A stretch of DNA of 64,000 nucleotides from Tubulanus polymorphus (lineage: Eukaryota > Nemertea > Palaeonemertea > Tubulaniformes > Tubulanidae). The translations under genes and the position numbers were made by a program. The notes beneath the pieces were generated by a model. That model saw only the letters and a list, made by a program, of their open reading frames with translations. It did not search any database and had not been told where the DNA came from. This document shows, piece after piece, positions 7,301-20,585 of this stretch. The first letter of the stretch is position 1. The number at the start of each line of letters is the position of its first letter. The stretch is taken from NCBI RefSeq assembly GCF_964204645.1, contig NC_134034.1, positions 11,928,462 to 11,992,461 of the forward strand. The letters run 5' to 3'.

Positions 7301-10300
7301 ATATTCTATGATGTCATAGGGGGATTTATGGATAGCCAGTCATCTTTTCTCGTATTTGTTAGTTTGAATTATCGTTCAGATTTTGTCCGGCTTTTCGATG
7401 GATGTTAAAGTTGGCCAGACGGTGGCGCTAGTCGGTTCGAGCGGTTGCGGTAAGAGTACGACCGTTAACTTGTTACAGAGGTTCTACGACGCCGAAGGAG
7501 GTTCGGTAAGTTCGGCTTTTTGAAAATCGGCGGAAAATCAGGGAATTTGAATTTTTGGTGTCTTGTTCTTGCTGGTGATGAGTGACCTCTTGATAAGAAA
7601 CAGCCCTCGCTGAGGGCAACTTATAATTTAATCAGGGAATATTTGGTCAAGTGTCAGGGGGTATTAGAGGATTTTGGATTCTCTGATCTGTAAGAACTTC
7701 AGTTTACAAACTATGTAGACTACAATAACCCTAACATCAAACTTTTTCAAAGACTTTCGCTTTAAGTCTGCAAAGTACATATACGATGAAATTTGTTGTA
7801 ATTCTGGCAGGTAAAAATAGATGGCGTAGACGTGCGAGATATGAATTTGAAATGGTTGCGTAATCACATCGGAGTGGTCAGTCAGGAGCCGGCGTTGTTC
7901 GCTACGACGATCGCCGAGAATATCCGATTCGGCGGCGACGACGGCGCCGTCACTCAGGCTGAGGTCGAACAGGCGGCTCGTAACGCAAACGCGCACGACT
8001 TCATCATGCAATTACCCGAGGTAACTATATACCGGGTATCTGTTATTCCTCCTCTACTGGGTACCTGCTACCTCCCTCTGCTTATTGTTCACAAGATCTG
8101 CTGATTTATTGAGCATACTGCAAAAATCAAGCTAGTTCGCGCCGAGTTTCATCGACTGGTATTATCTTAATCCTTGGTTGAGCCCGATTCATAGCTTATC
8201 GTTGTTGATCTCCGGGTCAAAAGTGAACACCAGGGACCAGTTCCGTAGTCTAGTAGCCATCTCAAATGTTTATACTGGTCTTACCGGCAAGTCGTTAAAT
8301 CGGTTATAAAACTAAGATTGTCGTAGACTGGTATTATCATGAAAATTGACAGCAGTCTATAAAACTGGTTCCTGTTGGATAACCCGTTTTAAAAAAGATT
8401 CACTCGCAAGGTTCACTCATGGACTCACCCGTGCTAGACTCACCGGTGCCAGACTTGCCCTATGCGGTTTTCTACGGGTATCTAATCTATTTTGTCGTGT
8501 GATTTATAGCGGTATGAGACCATGGTCGGAGAACGCGGAGCTCAGTTGAGCGGCGGGCAGAAACAACGTATCGCCATCGCCCGCGCTTTAATCCGTAACC
8601 CTAAAATATTGTTACTCGACGAGGCGACGTCTGCCCTCGATACCGAGAGCGAGGCTATCGTACAGGAAGCCCTGGAAAAGGTTGGTAAACCCTGAATAAT
8701 TTTGATTTTGTAATTTTGTTGAATCATTAAAATCATCTTGAATTAGTAACTAATCATAATTTTACTGAATCATTGAAATCATCTTGAGTTAGTAACTAAT
8801 CATAATTTTACTGAATCATTGAAATCATCTTGAGTTAGTAACTAATCATAATTTTACTGAATCATTAAAGTGATCTTGAATTAGTAACTAATCATGATTT
8901 TGCCGAATCATTGTTGAAGTCATCTAATGTTGAACTAATCATAATTTTACTGACTGATTTTGAAGTAATCTTGAATTAGTAACTAATCATAATTTTACTG
9001 ACTGACTGATTGATATATTTCAGGCGAGTAAGGGTCGTACGACTCTAGTAATCGCTCATCGATTGTCAACGGTTCAGAATGCCGATCTGATCGTAGCCGT
9101 TAAAGATGGCCGCGTTGCCGAACAAGGAAACCACGATAAACTAATGTCGGAACGCGGGTTGTACTACTCGCTAGTCACTAGTCAGGTAAATTGTCATCGT
9201 CACTAGTCGTGTTCGTAAATGCTAGTCACAAATACAAATGTCTATTTCAACCTGACTTGAGAGCATTCCAAGTGGCCTAGCTCAGTCAGTTTTGGTAGTA
9301 CATACCTGATTAAAGTCTTATTAGGGCCAGAATGCATTGGCAGTTGACCTAAAATATCGTTTTTTAATTCACTTTACACTGTATCGAAGGATATCCAAAA
9401 AGTCTGCATTGAAAGGGGTTCCTGAGAGAAAAGAGACTCCATGATTTGAAAGTTTAACAATATGCCTCCATGCCTACCAACTGAAGTTTGGTGTGTAGGC
9501 ATGGAAACATATTGTTAAACTTTCAAATCATGGAGTCACTTCTCTTCACTTAACCCCTTTCAGTGAAGACTTTTTGGATATCCTTCAATACAGTTTCAAA
9601 TGGATTAAAAAATGATGATTTAGGTTGACTGCCAGTCCTTTCTGGTCCTATTAAGACCTTTATCAGGTATGTACTACCAAAAATGAGCGAGCTAGGCCAC
9701 CCGGAATGCTCTCAAGTCAGGTTGAAATAGACGTTAGTCATTACTAGCGCTCGTTGAATTGTTTATTCAATTGTTTTACAGACCGAGGATTTCTAGAATC
9801 AGATACCGTAAACCCCGCCCGGGTATGGGTTTCTTTCCTCTCAATTCTCGCACATACCGTAGTATAAATATACCGACGCGAAGAATGAAAAGAATCCGAA
9901 ATTTTTCCTTGAATTAATATCTATTCTACGTTTCAACTGTATCCGTAATGATCTTTTCCGCAATTACTATTAATATCTATTTCAACTGGACTTAGAGCGC
10001 ATCAGGTGGCCTAGCTCGGTCAGTCTTGGCGCTACATACCTGATAAAAGTCTTTAAAGGACCAGAATGCACTGGCAGTTGAACTAAAACATTGAATTTTA
10101 ATCCATTTTGAACTGTGTTGAAGGATATCCAAAAAGTCTTCATTGAAAGGGTTTGAAAAGAGAATTTAACAATATGTTTACATGCCTACATACCGACCAC
10201 CAGTCGATAAAGGAAACATTTCGGATTATGACTGGCGGACTGATATTTATCTCCGTATTCAGTGTTAATGAGCAAAACCTAATCTCATTGCGTAATCAGT

Positions 10301-13300
10301 CTCTTGGTTCGGGGGCTGGTTGCACAGTTGTGGCTTTGAGTCCAAAATGAGTCTTAAGACTGGTCTTAAATTGTTACGTTGGCTACAGAACTCAGTTGGT
10401 CTGAGACTGGTCTTAAGTCTAAGCTGTGAATGTGCAATTGGTCCCTGGATTGTATATATTAAATCTCATGATTAAGTTATCGCACTAGATGAAGATGAAT
10501 TTTAGGATATACGCCAAACGTGAACATTTTCGTCCGGTTTTATTCCGAGTCTGGGATTGTATATTATCTTTACAACACGGAGTGTTTCGTAAGCGGTGTG
10601 GAATTTATAGCGCTTTATGTTTTTCCGCAATGTCTCAGTTATATCTATGAGACTTATAAATGAACACGGCTTTTGTTGATTCGGCACGGGAATCCTGCTC
10701 ACGTACGCGCGCCCGGGAATCCTGCTCATGCATGCGTGCCCACAGATCCTGCTCATGTGCGTGGGCCCGGGAATCCTGCTCATGGGCGCGTGCCTGGGGA
10801 TCCTGCTCATGCGCGCCAGCCCCTTGCCTCGATTATTGCAGTATTTATAACACTGCTTCTATTTTATCAATCTTCTGCTTCGTGATCGTATAAAATACAG
10901 GTTTCGGTTGCGACAAAAGAATTAGTAAGTTTGAAGACTGTCGTTGGTGCTGGTGTTGTTTCACTGTGACTGTAGAGTATATTCTATGCGTCCCTCCACA
11001 ACCCCCCCCCCCCCTGCACACAGTCTGCCTGCACTAGTGTTCGTTCGTTTGTATTAAACTACTGGCCTCAAATCACACACGTCTTATTACACACTATCAA
11101 CACTATTTAGATATATCCCCCTCCCCTCTCCCCTCGTTCCATGTTCTCTTAGAGAAAGTCTGAAACGTTGTCTCAGTAAATTATTGTTCTTGGTAAAAAG
11201 ATTTCATTCTTAATTACATTAATCATTTCAATTTATTAATCTTATACCTATCCTAATCGGTACCTCTGAGTATAAACTGTTCTATTCTAGGAATTATACG
11301 AGTTATATTTTCATGAATGAATTTTCAACAGCAGGTCTCACTGTTGATGTGATATTAGGATATCGATTTCATACCCTGCTAATTGAATGAAGATTCGATT
11401 CATCGGAGTTCAAATCTGACGACAGCAGTTTCTATTCCTTTGTAGGTTACGGAAAAATCACCAGAAAATGACAGTGAAGGTAAATACAAAATGCACAACC
11501 TTTTTCCACAGTTCAGGATCCAGTTCCACTGTTCTGGACCCAGTTCCACAGTTCTGGACCCAGTTCCACAGTTCCGGATCCAGTTCCACTGTTCAGTATT
11601 CAGTTTCGCAGTACGGGACTCAGTTCCACAGTTCCACAGTTCAGGACCGAGTTCCATAGTTCATAATCGAGTTCCGCAGTTTAGAATACAGTTCCACAGT
11701 TCTGAACCCAACTCCACAATTCTGAACACAGTTCTGAACCCAGTTCCACAGTTCAGGACTCAGTTCCACAGTTCAGTATCAAGTTCCACAGTTCTGGACC
11801 CAGTTCTATAGTTCAGTATCAAGTTCCACAGTTCTGGACCCAGTTCCACAGTTCAGTATCAAGTTCCACAGTTCTGGACCCAGTTCTACAGTTCAGTATC
11901 TAGTTCCACAGTTCTGGACCAAGTTCCACAGTTCAGGATCCAGTCCCACAGTTCTGGACCCAGTTCCACTGTTCAGTATCAAGTTCCACAGTTCTGGACC
12001 CAGTTTGACAGTTCAGTATCTAGTTCCACACTTCTGGACCCAGTTCCACAGTTCAGGATCCAGTCCCATAGTTCTGGACCCAGTTTCACAGTTCTGAATC
12101 AAGTTCCACAGAGTTAAACAGTTGCGGGCTCAGTCCGACATTACTAGAACTAGGTTGTGTATCAGAAATACCCAGATCTCACTGGATGCTCGGTTGTTTA
12201 TTCACTAATGATCGATGTAATTCTGTGTTTATTATTTCAGATGAAGATTCCGAATCAGAAGTGATGATTGTGAAACCGGCGTCTGCCGTCGGTTCCGGTC
12301 TCGTGCGTCGTACGTCCAGCAGCAGACACCACGAGACGTTCAGACGTCGCGGGTCACTGACCTCCAGTCAACGCAGTATTCATAGTTTACAACGTATCAT
12401 GTCCGGCGAACAACCTCAACCTGATGACGAAATTATTGAAGATGTGAGTTTTAATTGGGGATTTAGTTCCTGGGTCAGTTCCACGGGTTTAGAGTGATGC
12501 AGAGTTAACTCTCGATCTGGACCTGGATAAGGAATACTGACAGTAACTAATTCTGCTCAGTGAATATGAGGGGAACCCAGGGCCCAGTTTCACAAAAAGG
12601 TTTAACTCTTAAATCGATTTAATTTGTTAATTGATTCAGTTTATCTTAAATCGATTTAGGCCTCAATCAATCCTTTTTGTGAAACTAGGCCTGAATCTCG
12701 TTCAGCGGGGTGATGGGAACCCTGAGGAGCACTCAGCGGGTTGAGGGGAACCCAGAGTGGCGTTCAGCAGGGTGATGGGAACCCTGAGTGTTATTCAGCG
12801 AGTTGAGGGGAACCCTGAGGTGAATTCAGGAAAAACTCGGGGCATTGATAAATTGGCGAATTGTGGCAGTCCCCTGTTCAACCCGGTTCTGGTTGAAATA
12901 AGTCTATTGAATTGTTAATTTGTATTTGAACAGACAAAGGCGGCCGATAAACGAGCTGCTAAACAAGTATCCATGACTCGACTGTTGAAATTAAATCGTC
13001 CCGAATGGTTGTTTATTTTACTGGGTTGTTTCTCAGCGATCATCACCGGTGGAGTTCAGCCGGCGTTCGCGATAGTATTCAGTGAGATACTCGGGGTAAG
13101 TCGATTTCACGTCGATCAGTGGCATAACCCACTGGGTCCCTACGACTCATTAAAACGGATAATGTTTTTAAAGCTGCCTGAAACTGCTTTAATTTGAACA
13201 AAATTCCCAAGGCTTCAATTTTGAGAAATAGGCAATTATACATTCTTGTCTGGTTTGTAGTTCTATAGTAAACTACGCCTAGAAATTGGCATAATTTGGA

Positions 13301-16300
13301 CGACAAACGTTAGAAACCATGTTTAGTAGTGTATAGGATAAAAATTTGCTTACAAAACAGCTGAATTACTGGTTTACCGAGATAAAGGAGGAGAAGTCTG
13401 CTGTCATTGGGATATGAAAGTGATGCAGACGCTTCCTGAAAATTGGAAATTTCCTCCTAGAATACTCCTTATATGCCTATCTAGGATTATCCGTAGGGAC
13501 TCTGATTCTACTACGATATCTGAGGTAATCAACTCCTTATAAAATAGAAATCAGACGTAAAATTGATGATTTCATTTTCAGGTATTTGCGATTGTTGATC
13601 CGGACAAACAGTCCGAACGGGCCGTGTTTTACTCGTTGATTCTACTGGGAATCGGAATAGTTTCCGGCGGGTTTTACTTCCTACAGGTATTGAACAACAC
13701 CGCGGTTCTTATAACTCGTAAACGATCGAATTGTCTTTTTAGCAAAAAAACCCGTCTAAAATGTCGCGCTCGTTATTTTCAGAATTTCATGTTCGCTATA
13801 TCCGGCGAGCGGCTGACGTTACGTCTAAGACAGATGGCTTTTAAATCGATACTTAAACAGGTCAGCGTCCGAGACCGGTTCCACGGTTATTAAGTCAGTG
13901 CATTTGCGTACTGTAATGGCCGATTTTGCGTACAGAGGGGGAGGGGGTTGAAAAATTCAAATTTTATGCGTACGTAATTAATGAATGATCCCATACCAAA
14001 GTGACTATGAAGTGTTAATTGTTGCTAGGTCAACTATCAACTGGTAAATTCCATAAATCTAAGGTCACTTGCTGAAAAGTTGGTTAAAGATAAGCGGCGG
14101 ATAAATGTTATAGTAACATGGACTTTTAATTGTCACTGTCACCCCAGCTCTGACCAACTTTTGAGCAACTGTAGCACCTGGTATTCTCAGAAAGTTGATT
14201 TGAAAGATTTGATTTCGCAGCCTGATGCGACGTTTTAAAAAGTAATAAAGTTTGATATATTTGTAGGAGATGGGATGGTTCGACAACAGCGCGAATCAAG
14301 TTGGAGCTCTAACAGCGAGACTGGCTAGCGATACATCTCTAGTAAAAGGGGTATGTTAATATCGACTTATTGAAGACAATCCGGCTCTAGGACGTCATAA
14401 AAAACCGAAATTGAATCAATAATGTCTTTTCTTAAAGGATTGATGATGTCATAGGGGGATATACGGAAGAAGCCATCTTTTCTTATTAGTTTGATAAGGT
14501 CGTAGGGGAATTTTTATGGGGGAAGCTTTTCAATGTTTAGAGACATTCTTCCTGCCTTCATAAATCCCACTATGACAACATAAATTTGACATTGACGATG
14601 ATGTCATAGGTGGAATGTTATGTTCTTCCTGCCTTCATTTGACATCGATGATGATGATGTCATAGGTGGAATGTTACGTTCTTCCTGCCCTCATAAATCC
14701 CACTATGACGACATAAATTTGACATTATTGGGTGGAATGTTGTCATTGTTTTTGCAGGCTACTGGATCGAGGTTCGCGATTATAATCCAAGCGATTGCTA
14801 ATCTCGGGGTCGGTATTCTCATCTCGTTCGTCTACGGCTGGAAGTTGACGCTGGTCGTGTTGTGTTTCCTGCCTCTGATGGCCGTCGCCGGCGTGATGGA
14901 GAACAGGATGCTCACCGGATTCGCTAAAACTGACAACAACGTCATCGAAGAAGGCGGAAAGGTCGGAGAGACGATAATTCGATTTCGATTTTACAGGGTT
15001 CTTACAGATCATTATTTTCCCATGCGGGGAAAATCAGGGAATAAGAATTTTTGTTGTTCTTGCTGGTGATGAGTGGCACAAGGAACCTCTTGATATGAAA
15101 TAGCCCTCACTGAGGTTATCTTATAATTTAATCAGGGAATTTGAATTTTTGGTGTCTTGTTGTTCTTACTGATGATGAGTGGCACAAGGAACCTCTTGAT
15201 AAGAAAAAGCCCTCATTGAGGATATCTTATGATTTAATCAGGGAATTTTTGATTCCCTTATCTGTAAGGACCCTGACGCTTCCAATAGACTAATGACTTG
15301 TATTAGAATACTCTCATGTTGAAATTGTTTATGTCTTAATAAAGAAACTAATATTAACTGTATGGAAAATTTAGTAATAGACTAATGACTTTTGTCTGGA
15401 TATCTGATGTCTGATGTTGAATTTGTAGATCGCGGTTGAAGCTACTGAAAACATTCGAACCGTTTCATCATTGAATCGACAACATTATTTCTACAGTAAA
15501 TACATCAGTTTCTTCGAAGCCCTTCACAGGTAACCACCAGAAATATATGAAAATACCAACAACGCAGTCTACTGCAAGTAAAACGCATGCGCAGTCTACC
15601 GCAAGCGCCATAGACTTGCAACTTAGGTCTATTTCAACTTTGCTGAGCAGACGTCCGATCGCCTAGCTCAGACATCCGATCGCCTAGCTCAGTTATTTTC
15701 GGTAGTGAATACCTGAAGCACAGATGGGCAGTTGAACTAAAACATCAATTTTTAATGCCGGTCCTAAATCATACTCGCATCACGTATTTTCTGCCAACAC
15801 TGACTGGGCCACCTGATGTGCTCTCAAAGTTGAAATAGACATTAGTCCCAATTAGTTTCACCAATAAATGTCTCGATTTAAGAATGTCGCAATAGAAGCT
15901 TGATGTGATTAATATTTCAGCCAAGGATCTAAGATTGTCAGTTATTTCAGAAAGGGATCTAAGATTGTTAGTTATTTCAGACAGGGATCTAAGATTGTTA
16001 GTTATTTCAGACAGGGATCTTAGATTGTCAGTTATTTCCGACAGGGATCTTAGATTGTCAGTTATTTCAGAAAGGGATCTAAGATTGTTAGTTATTTCAG
16101 ACAGGGATCTAAGATTGTCAGTTATTTCAGACAGGGATCTTAGATTGTCAGTTATTTCAGACAGGGATCTTAGATTGTCAGTTATTTCAGACAGGGATCT
16201 TAGATTGTCAGTTATTGTTAGTTATTTCAGACAGGGATCTAAGATTGTCAGTTATTTCAGACAGGGATCTAAGATTGTCAGTAATTGTTTGTTGTTTCAG

Positions 16301-19300
16301 ACAGGGATCAAGGAAGGCTCACATCCACGGTATCACTTACAGCTCCGCTCAATCGATCATATATTTCGCGTACGCCGTGTCGTTCGCTTTCGGGGCATAC
16401 CTCGTCGATCAGGGCGAAATGGTGTTCATCGATATTTTCAAGTAAGTTCTATCGATTCAATCGTTGAGAATATTACGGACCTAGTTTAAGTTAAAAGATT
16501 TAAGATGGCTGACTGGTGGCCATCTTGGCATCTATCTCTTATTATAGGTCTTTCCTTGCGTTTTGATGGATCTCGATAAACATATTGCGCTTGCGATTTA
16601 TTTTAGAAAAAAGGTCAAAGATGGCTGACCGATGGCCATCTTGGCATGTATGTGTACGAAGTAACTTAGGCCTTTTTAACTGTACAAAATCTGCGGGAGG
16701 TAACTCAGGCCCGGGAGGTACTAGTCGGCCTGAGGCAGACATTTCTACTTGGATTCTCGACCACGTTGAAGCGAAGTTAAGTAACGAAGTTTCTCTTCAT
16801 TTTGCTTGTAGAATATTTGGAGCGATTACGTTCGGAGGAATGGCGTTCGGCGAGGCTACGACCGCCGCTCCCGATTATTTCAAAGCCAAGGTCGCCGCTC
16901 ACAAACTGTTTAGACTATTCGATCGCGTTCCGGAGATTGATTCGAGCAGCACAGACGGACTGAAACTGGTAGGTGAAAATAGCGGAGTTGTCTTCGGTAC
17001 GAAGATTTAGATTTGAAATTTATGTCGCTTTTGAGTTCATTTTCATTGTTTTATGGAAATCTTGAGTCAAATGTTGATAAGTCGGGACCCAGTTCCACGT
17101 ACCTTAAACATAAATTGGACCTAAAGAGAGCTAAAACATGGAAAATTAGCCAATTTTGTTGGAATTGGACCCTGTGGCTATTGATTAAAGACCGGTTCTA
17201 TAGCCGATCTAACAACTTAAGACCGGTCTAAACTCATTTTAGTTCTATAGCCAATCTAACAACTTAGGACCAGTCTAAGCTCATTTTAGTTCTATAGCCA
17301 ATCTAACAACTTAAAGATCAGTCTTAAGTCATTTTGGTTCTATAGCCAATCTAACAACTTAAGACCAGTCTAAGCTCATTTTGGTTCTATAGCCAATGTA
17401 ACAGGTTAAGACCAGTCTAAGCTCATTTTGGTTCTATTGCCTATCTTACAACTTGAGATCAGTCTCAGCTCATTTTCTGAAGCTAATCTAACAACATGAA
17501 ACCGGTCATAAGATTTGAGATCATTTTTGGACTTTATTCATGAGTCTGAACCAAGGTCCATGGTTTTGGGTTAGAAATGTGGCATTAGTTTAGGAACGTT
17601 GGTTATGAACTCGTTTTACCTGGAACCGGATCCGATACTTTTACTGTTTTAGAAAATTCCGATGGCTTTATTTCTACTGTAGAACGTGGACAGTTTCTCC
17701 GGTAATGTCCGATTCGAGAAGGTGAACTTCCACTACCCGACGCGTCCGAACGTGCGGGTGTTGCGTAATCTCGACTTGTCGTTGAACGCCGGTGAAGTGC
17801 TCGCTCTGGTCGGTAGCAGCGGTTGCGGTAAGAGTACGACCGTTCAGCTGATTGAACGATTCTATAATCCGATTACTCCTCATCAACGTAACGTCAACGC
17901 TTCAAACATCGATCTGAAACCCGGACACGTCGTATGTATTCAACTTATACTCATTTCTTAATTCATTTTCTGACAATACATAAATTAAGGCCATAAGTTA
18001 GAGACAGAGTCTACTGCATTTTACAAACTCTTACTCAGTATTTGACACAAATTCGGGGTATTATTTTACCAGTCTCAACTTTACGGCAGTAAGAGACAGA
18101 GTCTACTGTATTTCACAAACTCTTACTCAGTATTTGACACCAACTGGGGGTAGAATTTTACCAGTCTCAACTTTACCGCAGTAAGAGACAGAGTCTACTG
18201 TGTTTCACAAACTCCTACTCAGTATTTGACACCAACTCGGGGGAGAATTTTACCAGTCTCAACTTTATCGCAGTAAGAGACAGAGTCTACTGTATTTCAC
18301 AAACTCTTACTCAGTATTTGACACAAATTCGGGGTATTATTTTACCAGTCTCAACTTTACCACAGTAAGAGACAGAGTCTACTGTATTTCACAAACTCTT
18401 ATTCAGTATTTGACACAAACTCGGGGTAGAATTTTACCAGTCTCATCTTTACCGCAGTAAGAGACTGAGTCTACTGTATTTCACAAACTCTTACTCAGTA
18501 TTTGACACTAACTCGGGGTAGAATTTTACCAGTCTCATCTTTACCGCAGTAAGAGACAGAGTCTACTGTATTTCTTGACTTAAAGTGACTTGTATCTATT
18601 TTTTCTAATTTTCTCAGATGTTAGACGGTCACGATGTGAAGGATTTGAACATTCAATGGCTGCGATCTCGTATCGGTATCGTCGCTCAGGAACCGGTTCT
18701 ATTCGCTACAAGTATCCGAGAGAATATCGAATACGGAGAGAACTCTCGCGTCGTTTCGATGGATGAAATTATCACAGCGGCTCGAGACGCGAACATTCAC
18801 GACTTCATACAGTCGCTACCACTGGTAAGTGAGGTTTCAGTCGCTACCACTGGTAAGTGAGGTTTCAGTCGCTACCACTGGTAAGTGAGGTTTCAGTCGC
18901 TACCACTGGTGAGTGAGGTTTCAGTCGCTACCACTGGTAAGTGAGGTTTCAGTCGCTACCACTGGTAAGTGAGGTTTCAGTCTCTAACATACACGACTTC
19001 ATACAGTCGCTACCACTGGTAAGTGAGGTTTCAGTCGCTACCATACACGACTTCATACAGTCGCTACCACTGGTAAGTGAGGTTTCAGTCGCTAGCATAC
19101 ACGACTTCATACAGTCGCTACCACTGGTAAGTGAGGTTTCAGTCGCTACCATTGGTAAGTGAGGTTTCAGTCGCTACCACTGGTAAGTGAGGTTTCAGTC
19201 GCTACCACTGGTAAGTGAGGTTTCAGTCGCTACCACTGGTTAGTGTGGTTTCAGTCGCTAACATACACGACTTCATACAGTCGCTACCACTGGTAAGTGA

Positions 19301-20257
19301 GGTTTCAGTCGCTACCACTGTGAGGTTTCAGTGACTGATTAAGTTTAACTGTTCAGGACCCCTCCGCTGTTGTAAGAGAAGATATGAATCAAAACATTGA
19401 AAATAAACTGGTTTTAACTCACAACTATAGAACTGGATCCTGAGTTCAGAGTTAACTCAAACTGACAACTGCGCAACTGGATCCTGAGGTCATTTGAGGT
19501 CCGGGTTTGAGGAAGTATCGGTTTACAAAGTTTAAACAACGCCATATTAGAAACAATGCATGGTTCCCACAGTATCGGGAAATTGGGAAAAACCTTGAAA
19601 TGATCATTCCCAGTTTGGAAATATTTGGGAATTTGAGGGATATTTTGGAAATTCATTTACATTTCACGTATTGCATTTGCCAAGGGCAACTTTCCTTCAG
19701 CAATTTTTACTTGTAAATCACCTTTATCAACCAGTCACCACTAAAATGTTGACTGTAGTATGATGATATCTGTTCATTACCATTTGGGAAAATTGTTGAA
19801 AATCACCCGTGTAATACTTGGGAAAAACCTGGGAATTTCTAATCTTTTTGAACGATGACAATGAATTAGAATTAGAATCTTGTTGTGAATGTTGATATCT
19901 GTATTTCAGGGATATGAAACGAATGTAGGTGATAAAGGCACTCAGTTGAGCGGCGGGCAGAAACAACGTATCGCCATCGCCCGCGCTTTAATCCGTAACC
20001 CTAAAATATTGTTACTCGACGAGGCGACGTCTGCCCTCGATACCGAGAGCGAGGCTATCGTACAGGAAGCCCTTGACCGCGCTCAACGAGGTCGCACGTG
20101 CATCGTCATCGCGCATCGGTTGTCCACGATTCAGAACGCGAATCGAATCGCGGTGATTCATCGCGGCGTCGTCGCGGAGATCGGTACGCACGCCGAGCTG
20201 ATGAAACACGAGGGCGCGTACTATAAACTACAACGAGCTCAAAACAGATCGAAATAA
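1331..20257 (+). CDS. ABCB1-like: Full ABC transporter, P-glycoprotein/MDR type (ABCB1-like)
   Basis: Encodes an ATP-driven multidrug/lipid exporter of the plasma membrane, arranged TMD1-NBD1-linker-TMD2-NBD2. Exons by phase: 1331-1551, 1858-1921, 2311-2489, 2900-3130, 3792-3963, 4441-4565, 5558-5729, 6509-6622, 7071-7178, 7380-7505, 7811-8020, 8510-8680, 9024-9185, 11446-11479, 12241-12443, 12934-13095, 13582-13686, 13783-13860, 14267-14350, 14758-14961, 15429-15529, 16301-16441, 16812-16968, 17683-17931, 18618-18824, 19910-20257; 4128 nt, 1375 aa (human ABCB1 is 1280). Walker [10 protein letters not shown] is at about residues 481-489 and 1152-1160, LSGGQ at 587-591 and 1273-1277, Walker B ILLLDE near 607-612 and 1293-1298, and the H-loop IAHRLST follows in both halves. 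The N-terminus is acidic and proline-rich. The linker (about 686-764) is Ser/Arg-rich with RRTSSS, a likely kinase site. The start ATG has A at -3 and G at +4. Oddities: an insertion in NBD2 after Walker A, and a 133-bp tract shared exactly by both NBDs. All phases join, so the model is sound; a bile-salt-exporter-type (ABCB11) name is the alternative within the family. Confidence 0.95.
3350..3605 (+). repeat. 36-bp minisatellite, ABCB intron 4
   Basis: About seven tandem units of ttcacctgcagcagattcac type, period about 36 bp. Multiples of three keep several frames open, which makes spurious reading frames on both strands. Confidence 0.85.
4010..4290 (+). repeat. Three diverged tandem copies of about 100 bp, ABCB intron 5
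   Basis: Units share gtttgtagttcattttcaat, a tgtctcag motif and gaacacatgt. Confidence 0.7.
4579..4800 (+). repeat. About 72-bp tandem repeat next to the exon 6 donor
   Basis: Three units (ttcatagagtttgtt, then cagatcttggattcccaag), with a decayed fourth near 4890-4940. Confidence 0.8.
4985..5076 (-). mobile_element. tRNA-like (SINE-type) head, minus strand
   Basis: Read on the minus strand, an A-box-like tagctctcagcgg is followed about 60 nt later by a B-box ggttcgagtcc. A second B-box-like ggttcgaatgc lies near 4840-4862. No full cloverleaf, so a SINE relic rather than a tRNA gene. Confidence 0.35.
5939..6080. mobile_element. MITE 'ggccggttgcatag' type, copy 1
   Basis: About 140 bp with inverted ends ggccggttgcatagtcatgg and gcacaactgtgcaactggcc. 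The interior is built from taagaccagtct motifs. Confidence 0.65.
6319..6477. mobile_element. MITE 'cccagtttcatagac' type, copy 1
   Basis: About 155 bp, ends gggcccagtttcatagac and tctatgaaacccagtcctg. A second copy at 21129-21291 is highly similar throughout. Confidence 0.7.
7222..7340 (+). repeat. 'gatgtcatagggggat' repeats, ABCB intron 9
   Basis: Two to three units of atgatgtcatagggggat plus a gccatctttt motif. The same family occurs at 14440-14740 and 20586-21070. Confidence 0.7.
8541..8673 (+). other. NBD1 signature/Walker B segment identical to the NBD2 segment
   Basis: This part of exon 12 encodes LSGGQ through Walker B and the D-loop. All 133 bases match 19941-20073 in exon 26. Identity stops at the base before 8541 and the base after 8673, where the two halves again differ at the level usual for NBD1 versus NBD2. 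Confidence 0.95.
8688..9020 (+). repeat. 47-bp minisatellite, ABCB intron 12
   Basis: About six units containing aattttactgaatcattgaa and ttagtaactaatcat. Confidence 0.85.
9238..9735. mobile_element. Foldback element, second copy (ABCB intron 13)
   Basis: A near-perfect palindrome of about 500 bp with ends gtctatttcaacctgacttg and its complement. The interior (gactccatgatttgaaag and complement) is almost the same as in the 380-1149 copy. Confidence 0.8.
9782..9796 (+). other. Possible alternative terminal exon of ABCB (adds TEDF then stop)
   Basis: A convincing 3' splice site (T-rich stretch ending tttacag at 9781) is followed in the correct phase by codons T-E-D-F and a stop. Joined to exon 13 (ends 9185) it would end the protein right after NBD1, giving a half transporter of about 689 aa. 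No clear AATAAA follows closely, so it may be a cryptic site. Confidence 0.25.
9963..10190. mobile_element. Foldback element, left arm only
   Basis: Matches only the left arm of the element at 9238-9735 and is diverged. It stops after the acatgcctac loop segment. Confidence 0.6.
10307..10446. mobile_element. MITE 'ggccggttgcatag' type, copy 2
   Basis: Ends ggctggttgcacagttgtgg and tgtgcaattggtccctgg with the same gtcttaag interior. Confidence 0.6.
10683..10820 (+). repeat. 27-bp GC-rich minisatellite, ABCB intron 13
   Basis: Five to six units of gggaatcctgctcatg plus a cgcg-rich spacer. Period 27 keeps frames open on both strands. Confidence 0.8.
11505..12115 (+). repeat. 20-bp minisatellite, ABCB intron 14
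   Basis: About 30 units of cagttccacagttctggacc, with a 40-bp higher-order alternation. The unit resembles the end of the dispersed 'cagttccacagttgtgag' MITE. Confidence 0.9.
12588..12692. mobile_element. Small MITE 'ggcccagtttcacaaaaa' type
   Basis: Inverted ends ggcccagtttcacaaaaagg and cctttttgtgaaactaggcc surround aaatcgattta palindromes. A relative lies at 39871-39992. Confidence 0.65.
12700..12835 (+). repeat. About 29-bp tandem repeat, ABCB intron 15
   Basis: Four to five diverged units of attcagcgggttgaggggaa type. Confidence 0.7.
14440..14745 (+). repeat. 'gatgtcatagg' repeats, ABCB intron 19
   Basis: Mixed direct and inverted units (atgatgtcataggtggaatg, aaatcccactatgac) up to the exon 20 acceptor. 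Confidence 0.7.
15040..15255 (+). repeat. Tandem pair of about 100-bp units, ABCB intron 20
   Basis: Two copies with ttgctggtgatgagtggcac and aggaacctcttgata. A third, single copy is at 7545-7640 in intron 10. Confidence 0.7.
15625..15843. mobile_element. Foldback element, internally deleted copy
   Basis: Has the gtctatttcaac end and its complement gttgaaatagac about 210 bp apart, with part of the arm sequence between. It lies in ABCB intron 21. Confidence 0.55.
15911..16310 (+). repeat. 30-bp array whose unit contains a 3' splice site and exon start
   Basis: Units of gttatttcag + acagggatct + aagattgtca. The last unit, gttgtttcag with acagggatca, is the real acceptor and the start of ABCB exon 22 (16301). 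Eleven intact acceptor-like copies (AG at 15920, 15950, 15980, 16010, 16070, 16100, 16130, 16160, 16190, 16230, 16260) and one broken (16040) precede it. Confidence 0.92.
17180..17490 (+). repeat. 46-bp minisatellite, ABCB intron 23
   Basis: About seven units of ggttctatagccaatctaac + ttaagaccagtctaag. The unit matches the interior of the 'ggccggttgcatag' MITEs. Confidence 0.85.
17990..18565 (+). repeat. 92-bp tandem repeat, ABCB intron 24
   Basis: Six very similar units containing agtaagagacagagtctact and ttttaccagtctcaactt. Confidence 0.9.
18796..19330 (+). repeat. 28-bp array whose unit contains a 5' splice site and exon end
   Basis: The end of ABCB exon 25 (tcgctaccactg, then gtaagt; exon ends 18824) is repeated about 14 times as tcgctaccactg|gtaagtgaggtttcag. 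Some units carry a longer exon piece, atacacgacttcatacag. Confidence 0.92.
19941..20073 (+). other. NBD2 signature/Walker B segment identical to the NBD1 segment
   Basis: Partner of 8541-8673, exactly 11400 bp downstream in direct orientation. It lies in the last ABCB exon and encodes the second LSGGQ and Walker B. Confidence 0.95.
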
Positions 20258-20261
20258 TCAC

Positions 20262-20585
20262 GAATCACTGAGGAGATCTCACCTAACAAACCATGAATCA
20301 CCGTGGAGATCTCACCTAACAAACCATGAATCACCGACGAGATCTCACCTAACAAACCACGAATCACCTTGGAGATCTCACTCAACAAACCACGAATCAC
20401 CTTGGAGATCTCACTCAACAAACCACGAATCACCTTGGAGATCTCACTCAACAAACCACGAATCACCTTGGAGATCTCACTCAACAAACCACGAATCACC
20501 GAGATCTCACCTAACAAACCATGAATCACCGACGAGATCTCACCTAACAAACCATGAATCACCGAGGAGATGTCACTTAACAAAT
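20262..20585 (+). repeat. 33-bp minisatellite directly after the ABCB stop
   Basis: About ten units of aatcaccttggagatctcac + caacaaaccacg, in the probable 3'UTR. Confidence 0.9.

Follow-up and report, generated by a model that had tools for sequence, protein, structure and literature searches.

A probable mirage-type minisatellite repeats a 5' splice junction in an ABCB transporter gene of Tubulanus polymorphus

Minisatellite-like tandem duplications of exon-intron boundaries, on either side of the intron, have been described in amphioxus genes under the name of mirages (PMC3087553). In that globin paper, Adh3 has mirage units of 10-72 bp and the globins have longer ones of 150-160 bp, the arrays are length-unstable, regular splicing is reportedly undisturbed, and the mechanism is called unclear (PMC3087553); a second source adds PGBD5 to the mirage cases and refers to Adh and TnC (PMC3902484). 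The array that we describe here, at the donor of an ABCB intron, resembles the amphioxus cases covered in these sections (Adh3, TnC, the globins BflGb6 and BflGb9, and PGBD5) in having a unit that spans an exon-intron boundary, which may be the donor or the acceptor side (PMC3087553, PMC3902484). It also shares AG/GT signals in many units, and the 10-72 bp range given for Adh3 includes both its 28-bp unit and the 30-bp unit of a second array in the same gene (PMC3087553). It differs in lying in an ABCB gene of a 268-Mb genome, in the presence of donor and acceptor arrays in one gene, and in that 11 of its 14 donors are identical; moreover, the amphioxus mirages come with reports of RT-PCR and of variation between haplotypes, whereas the ABCB array is known from the sequence of one assembly. 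We consider it highly probable that this array is a mirage-type minisatellite, that is, a recent, single-locus array spanning exon and intron whose first donor is used while the rest are tolerated decoys, and it may extend mirage minisatellites beyond amphioxus.

In addition to mirages, other systems repeat or pair splice sites at short range. Dual-specific splice sites, as in human UBC and VCX3A, recur with a tandem unit and there give rise to variable isoforms; in the passages of the source used here, one AGGT serves as both donor and acceptor and, in UBC, delimits coding monomers (PMC10809524). In contrast, the ABCB array keeps CTG/GT and CAG/TC separate, and its units beyond the first are all intronic; a dual-specific array was rejected on the lack of a shared AGGT and on the 12 or 38 nt between sites. 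Recursive splicing, through ratchet points and RS-exons, likewise places a donor close behind an acceptor, and donor competition is named there among the factors deciding the product (PMC8605326). Ratchet points are described there as tandem acceptor-donor pairs, mainly of long introns (PMC8605326), whereas the intron carrying the ABCB array is 1,085 nt long and its acceptor-like sites and donors are spaced by 12 or 38 nt rather than immediately adjacent, so a ratchet point was rejected as well. Finally, a small duplication that creates new splice-site pairs, as in the case outlined in the cited part of PMC2891723, is a feature common to the ABCB array, but here it is the boundary of an intron already in place that was duplicated, and no intron was gained in ABCB, since all four paralogs read have the homologous intron.

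The array lies in the window, a 64,000-nt stretch of DNA. The terminal ABCB coding exons span 16301-20257 on the plus strand, and comparison of the translation of the last two with protein chains identifies their source as a P-glycoprotein-type ABCB gene (E about 1e-145 to 1e-143 against ABCB4 and ABCB1 chains). Our exon model, annotated by eye, has 25 coding exons and 24 introns, of which the shortest measures 96 nt. The exon at the array, numbered 25 in the preliminary description, is counted one lower in this model (Table 1); the higher number is plausible, because at least one linker exon is probably absent from the 25 exons. A phase mismatch was seen over a 3,055-nt gap at 9186-12240, where at least one small linker exon is probably missing. 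The junction itself we take, on the usual motifs, to lie between the Q-loop and the LSGGQ of NBD2.

Table 1. Features of the donor array, its flanking exons and the acceptor-side array (positions in the window).
Feature	Position	Strand	Remarks
Acceptor-side array, same ABCB gene	15913..16300	+	30-bp unit, TTTCAG/ACAGGGATC; authentic acceptor last, ending 16300
ABCB NBD2 coding exon	18618..18824	+	24th of 25 annotated; ends ...HDFIQSLPL, phase 0
First 28-bp unit	18810..18837	+	CAGTCGCTACCACTG exonic, then GTAAGTGAGGTTT intronic
Authentic donor CTG/GTAAGT, first of 14	18825..18830	+	paralog L001 has the same donor, single copy
Five units of 28 bp	18841..18980	+	12-nt SLPL core and donor (one GTGAGT)
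Three units of 54 bp (28+26)	18981..19142	+	38-nt core with added exon-like sequence, out of frame
Four units of 28 bp	19143..19254	+	variants 19155 (TTG/GTAAGT) and 19239 (GTTAGT)
Fourth 54-bp unit	19255..19308	+	
Final truncated unit	19309..19331	+	without donor; intron then resumes as CAGTGACTGATT
Last ABCB coding exon, to stop	19910..20257	+	preceded by authentic acceptor TATTTCAG

Tandem repetition of the exon's last 15 nt together with the intron's first 13 nt makes up the donor array, which runs from 18810 to 19331. The preliminary description had placed it at 18796-19330 and had reported about 14 repeats of the exon end and its donor, a 28-bp unit with a strong donor, an in-frame 12-nt S-L-P-L core and a frame-breaking 38-nt version, and each of these elements was recovered. 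There are 14 donor-bearing copies, the authentic one included, and a final copy that is truncated; the authentic copy is followed by nine units of 28 bp with the 12-nt S-L-P-L core, four of 54 bp with the 38-nt core and one of 23 bp. The donors lie at 18825, 18853, 18881, 18909, 18937, 18965, 19019, 19073, 19127, 19155, 19183, 19211, 19239 and 19293, and 11 of the 14 read CTG/GTAAGT, the remaining three being variants. Further exon sequence, ACATACACGACTTCATACAG, with one base different from the exon, is held by the 54-bp units. At the array edge the authentic boundary is preserved: the exon is open to 18824, GTAAGT stands at 18825 and the frame resumes at 19910. The copies are homogenised within the array (11 exact unit matches) and divergent at its edge, as seen in the truncated last copy. 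Such repeats are difficult to assemble, and an inflated copy number, or even the array itself, might be an assembly error; the units come in two main lengths and nine different sequences, arranged without periodicity, which argues against this, and we regard it as most improbable.

The intron is older than the repeats, since four paralogs (L001, L002, L005 and L006) share the homologous intron at the same position with a single donor each. In the nearest of them, L001, the intron is in phase 0, and its junction reads ...FIQSLPL/GTAAGTG and carries no array. We propose that replication or repair slipped between an exonic and an intronic CAGT lying 28 bp apart, which would yield exactly the 28-bp unit and would set the intronic TTTCAG ahead of the exonic TCGCTACCACTG. 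In line with such a step, CAGT stands at the unit boundary both where the exon copy begins and where the intron resumes in the 3' flank; with its 12 larger arrays set aside, 2.0% of the gene's 14,747 positions show homology of at least 4 at a 28-bp offset. The step describes one case, with a reconstructed parental sequence. Growth would then have followed by unequal exchange and at least one additional duplication taking in more exon, which presumably reached deeper into the exon because the 54-bp units hold more exon sequence. Since TTTCAG/TCGCTACCACTG would arise as the duplication joint, the units may look acceptor-like without any function in splicing. A slip at CAGT homology, with an acceptor-like site as its by-product, is thus a simple candidate for the birth step of mirages.

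The splice signals of the array were scored with matrices built from the 24 by-eye introns, a small set; leave-one-out scoring was applied to the real sites and the full matrix to those of the array. For the usual donor of the array the score is 11.6, a value reached by none of 820 other intronic GTs, and in this respect the GTAAGT donors are as strong as had been claimed. The usual acceptor-like site scores 3.0, compared with a median of 7.4 for real acceptors (range -5.9 to 15.7); 3 of 24 real acceptors fall below it, and 12% of 807 background AGs do at least as well. Pyrimidines fill 7 of its 17 positions (8-14 in the 24 real acceptors), and an AG lies 7 nt upstream, against a real minimum of 16, the AG distance having been computed for the usual site alone. 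Variant acceptor-like sites at 18924, 19170 and 19254 reach 4.5, 5.5 and 6.1, respectively, while scores of -6.2 to -9.9 were obtained for the CATACAG sites within the 54-bp units. Because the donors score at the top and the acceptor-like sites are mostly poor, the array is primarily one of donors.

These values bear on the proposal of the preliminary description that the 12-nt cores could enter the mRNA as in-frame micro-exons and so lengthen NBD2 by SLPL repeats. Such use is formally possible, as 9 of the 13 extra donor-bearing units have a stop-free, in-frame 12-nt core, 11 of the 14 donors carry the top score, three unit acceptors are better than the usual one and even the usual one exceeds 3 of 24 real acceptors. 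Neighbouring units are, however, separated by 16 nt, and adjacent units cannot both be used, because this intervening "intron" falls far below the shortest annotated one. The proposal would therefore be limited to a single unit or to a few that are not neighbours, which might be spliced in two steps, with the last donor used first and donor 1 then joined to an internal TTTCAG. For the third copy to serve as an exon, the intron that begins at donor 1 would be 44 nt long; from donor 1 to the acceptors from 18924 onward there are at least 100 nt. Against it stand the usual acceptor, poorer in pyrimidines than all 24 real ones and with its close upstream AG, the remaining 4 of 13 units, which break the frame, and LPL/GYE, the normal donor-1 reading, which is gapless and has no insert at the site in both ABCB alignments shown, each to ABCB4; a duplication joint would in addition account for the acceptor-like sites. 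As a functional reading of the sequence, micro-exon use appears weakly supported and we think it unlikely, while rare inclusion of a unit through one of the three better acceptors is possible.

If the array is a mirage, functional mRNA would come from the first, exon-adjacent donor and the remaining donors would be decoys lost with the intron, their occasional use being mostly frame-destroying. Only with donor 1 is the protein normal. An mRNA spliced at donor 2 would be 28 nt longer and out of frame, and would run into TGA right where the next exon begins (GGG ATA TGA); with a later donor the frame is likewise shifted, and a stop follows after 11 protein letters. How the first donor would be chosen is not accounted for by site strength, because 11 of the 14 donors are identical, and a strong downstream donor can be preferred over an upstream one. 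The idea that RNA structure selects the first donor was considered and rejected: the array folds well (z -3.39, with 0 of 100 shuffles as good, though shuffling destroys the repeats too), yet units of one sequence do not obviously single out the first.

A further reading is a regulatory role, in which the donor copies are decoys that cut output, transcripts spliced at downstream donors are frameshifted and decay, and the ABCB level is tuned by the number of copies. The stops met on extension, the stable fold (with the reservation that repeats are lost on shuffling) and the 11 identical donors, above the 820 other intronic GTs, would all suit this idea, but normal splicing is reported for amphioxus mirages in the sections cited (PMC3087553, PMC3902484), and we give it little credence. 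More broadly, it is doubtful that the array is a splicing device of either kind, one in which 14 donors compete and copy number sets the productive share of ABCB mRNA, or one in which non-adjacent SLPL inserts precede the NBD2 signature motif; if it were, a multidrug-pump-type transporter would be tuned by array length in a heritable way. We favor the mirage reading: the array resembles this known kind, and the spliceosome probably passes over the additional splice signals. With 14 donors in a row at one exon, 11 of which are identical and very strong, the locus offers a natural test of the choice that the spliceosome makes among equal 5' splice sites, since only the first gives a sound protein.

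Searching the 267.8-Mb genome for the 28-bp unit with up to 3 mismatches returned 14 places, every one in the donor array (11 exact, 2 with one mismatch and 1 with two), and the reversed unit returned no match under the same limit. The array is a local, single-locus minisatellite with no sign of a dispersed repeat. An array as such is ordinary in the window, where minisatellites abound (58 TRF rows), and it is the position at a splice junction that stands out. One of the neighbouring arrays, with 10 copies of a 33-bp unit at 20259-20584, starts 2 nt past the final base of the ABCB stop codon (20257).

To place this position in context, 100 regions around ABC and protein-kinase exon matches were fetched, one (L047) was dropped and 99 conserved exons were examined, yielding 31 arrays at 23 loci. 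An array lay within 60 nt of the match at 8 loci, of which 7 had it in flanking non-coding sequence and 1 (L101) in coding sequence. An array joining exon and intron within 60 nt of the match was found at 0 of the 99 exons, a limit past which true exon ends, and with them farther junction arrays, may lie. An exact repeat of at least 13 nt touching the match with 30 nt on each side was present at one of the 99 exons (L074), where it is intronic. At this locus (G000:C8:16416450-16417523) a 24-bp minisatellite begins 16 nt past the end of the kinase exon match, very near a donor but without crossing it. On this 99-exon sample, mirages are not common in the genome. Under the same TRF rule the ABCB gene has 15 arrays, and 2 of 15 on junctions, versus 0 of 31 in the survey, is suggestive only. 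Two mirages in one gene versus none at 99 exons would be rare under a purely random process, though the gene was chosen for them, and chance plus selection of the case may explain the pair. Two kinase matches, G000:C10:8114542-8115012 and G000:C36:93057-93527, have the same score, length and open frame, possibly an uncollapsed haplotype contig or a recent duplicate.

A genome-wide enrichment of donors in arrays was considered but found no support, as GTAAGT triplets numbered 249+194 (443) against 639+791 (1430) for the reversed control; overlapping matches were counted as they came, and a small number of long arrays supplied many of them, so the control is rough. A search for mollusc haemocyanin domains returned no match, though no control gave a signal either. 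The search for other acceptor-core-donor arrays with exact motifs gave 19 matches, 12 in the donor array and 7 singles, with 8 for the reversed control. With wider spacing the motif gave 54 matches against 13 for the control, and the donor array itself was without a match. Among the matches listed in that wider search, 28 fall in a 25-bp array of TTTCAGTAAGTGCTAGTGACTACTA at G000:C5:22166792-22167547, in which acceptor-like and donor-like motifs overlap within every unit.

The acceptor array that the preliminary description had reported upstream in the same ABCB gene does exist (15913-16300), and its 30-bp unit occurs at 10 places in the genome, all within that interval. In this array 8 of 11 upstream TTTCAG copies outscore the authentic acceptor, so strength alone does not choose the site, and the scores weigh against any easy account of site choice. 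We do not claim a CAGT-like birth for the acceptor array, because its 5' end resembles a worn unit.

Elsewhere in the gene, the NBD1 and NBD2 exons are identical at 135 of 136 nt from LSGGQ onward (8541-8676 and 19941-20076), while beyond this block blastn joins them in a single 46-nt piece at 78%. Recent intragenic gene conversion is the likely source of this identity.
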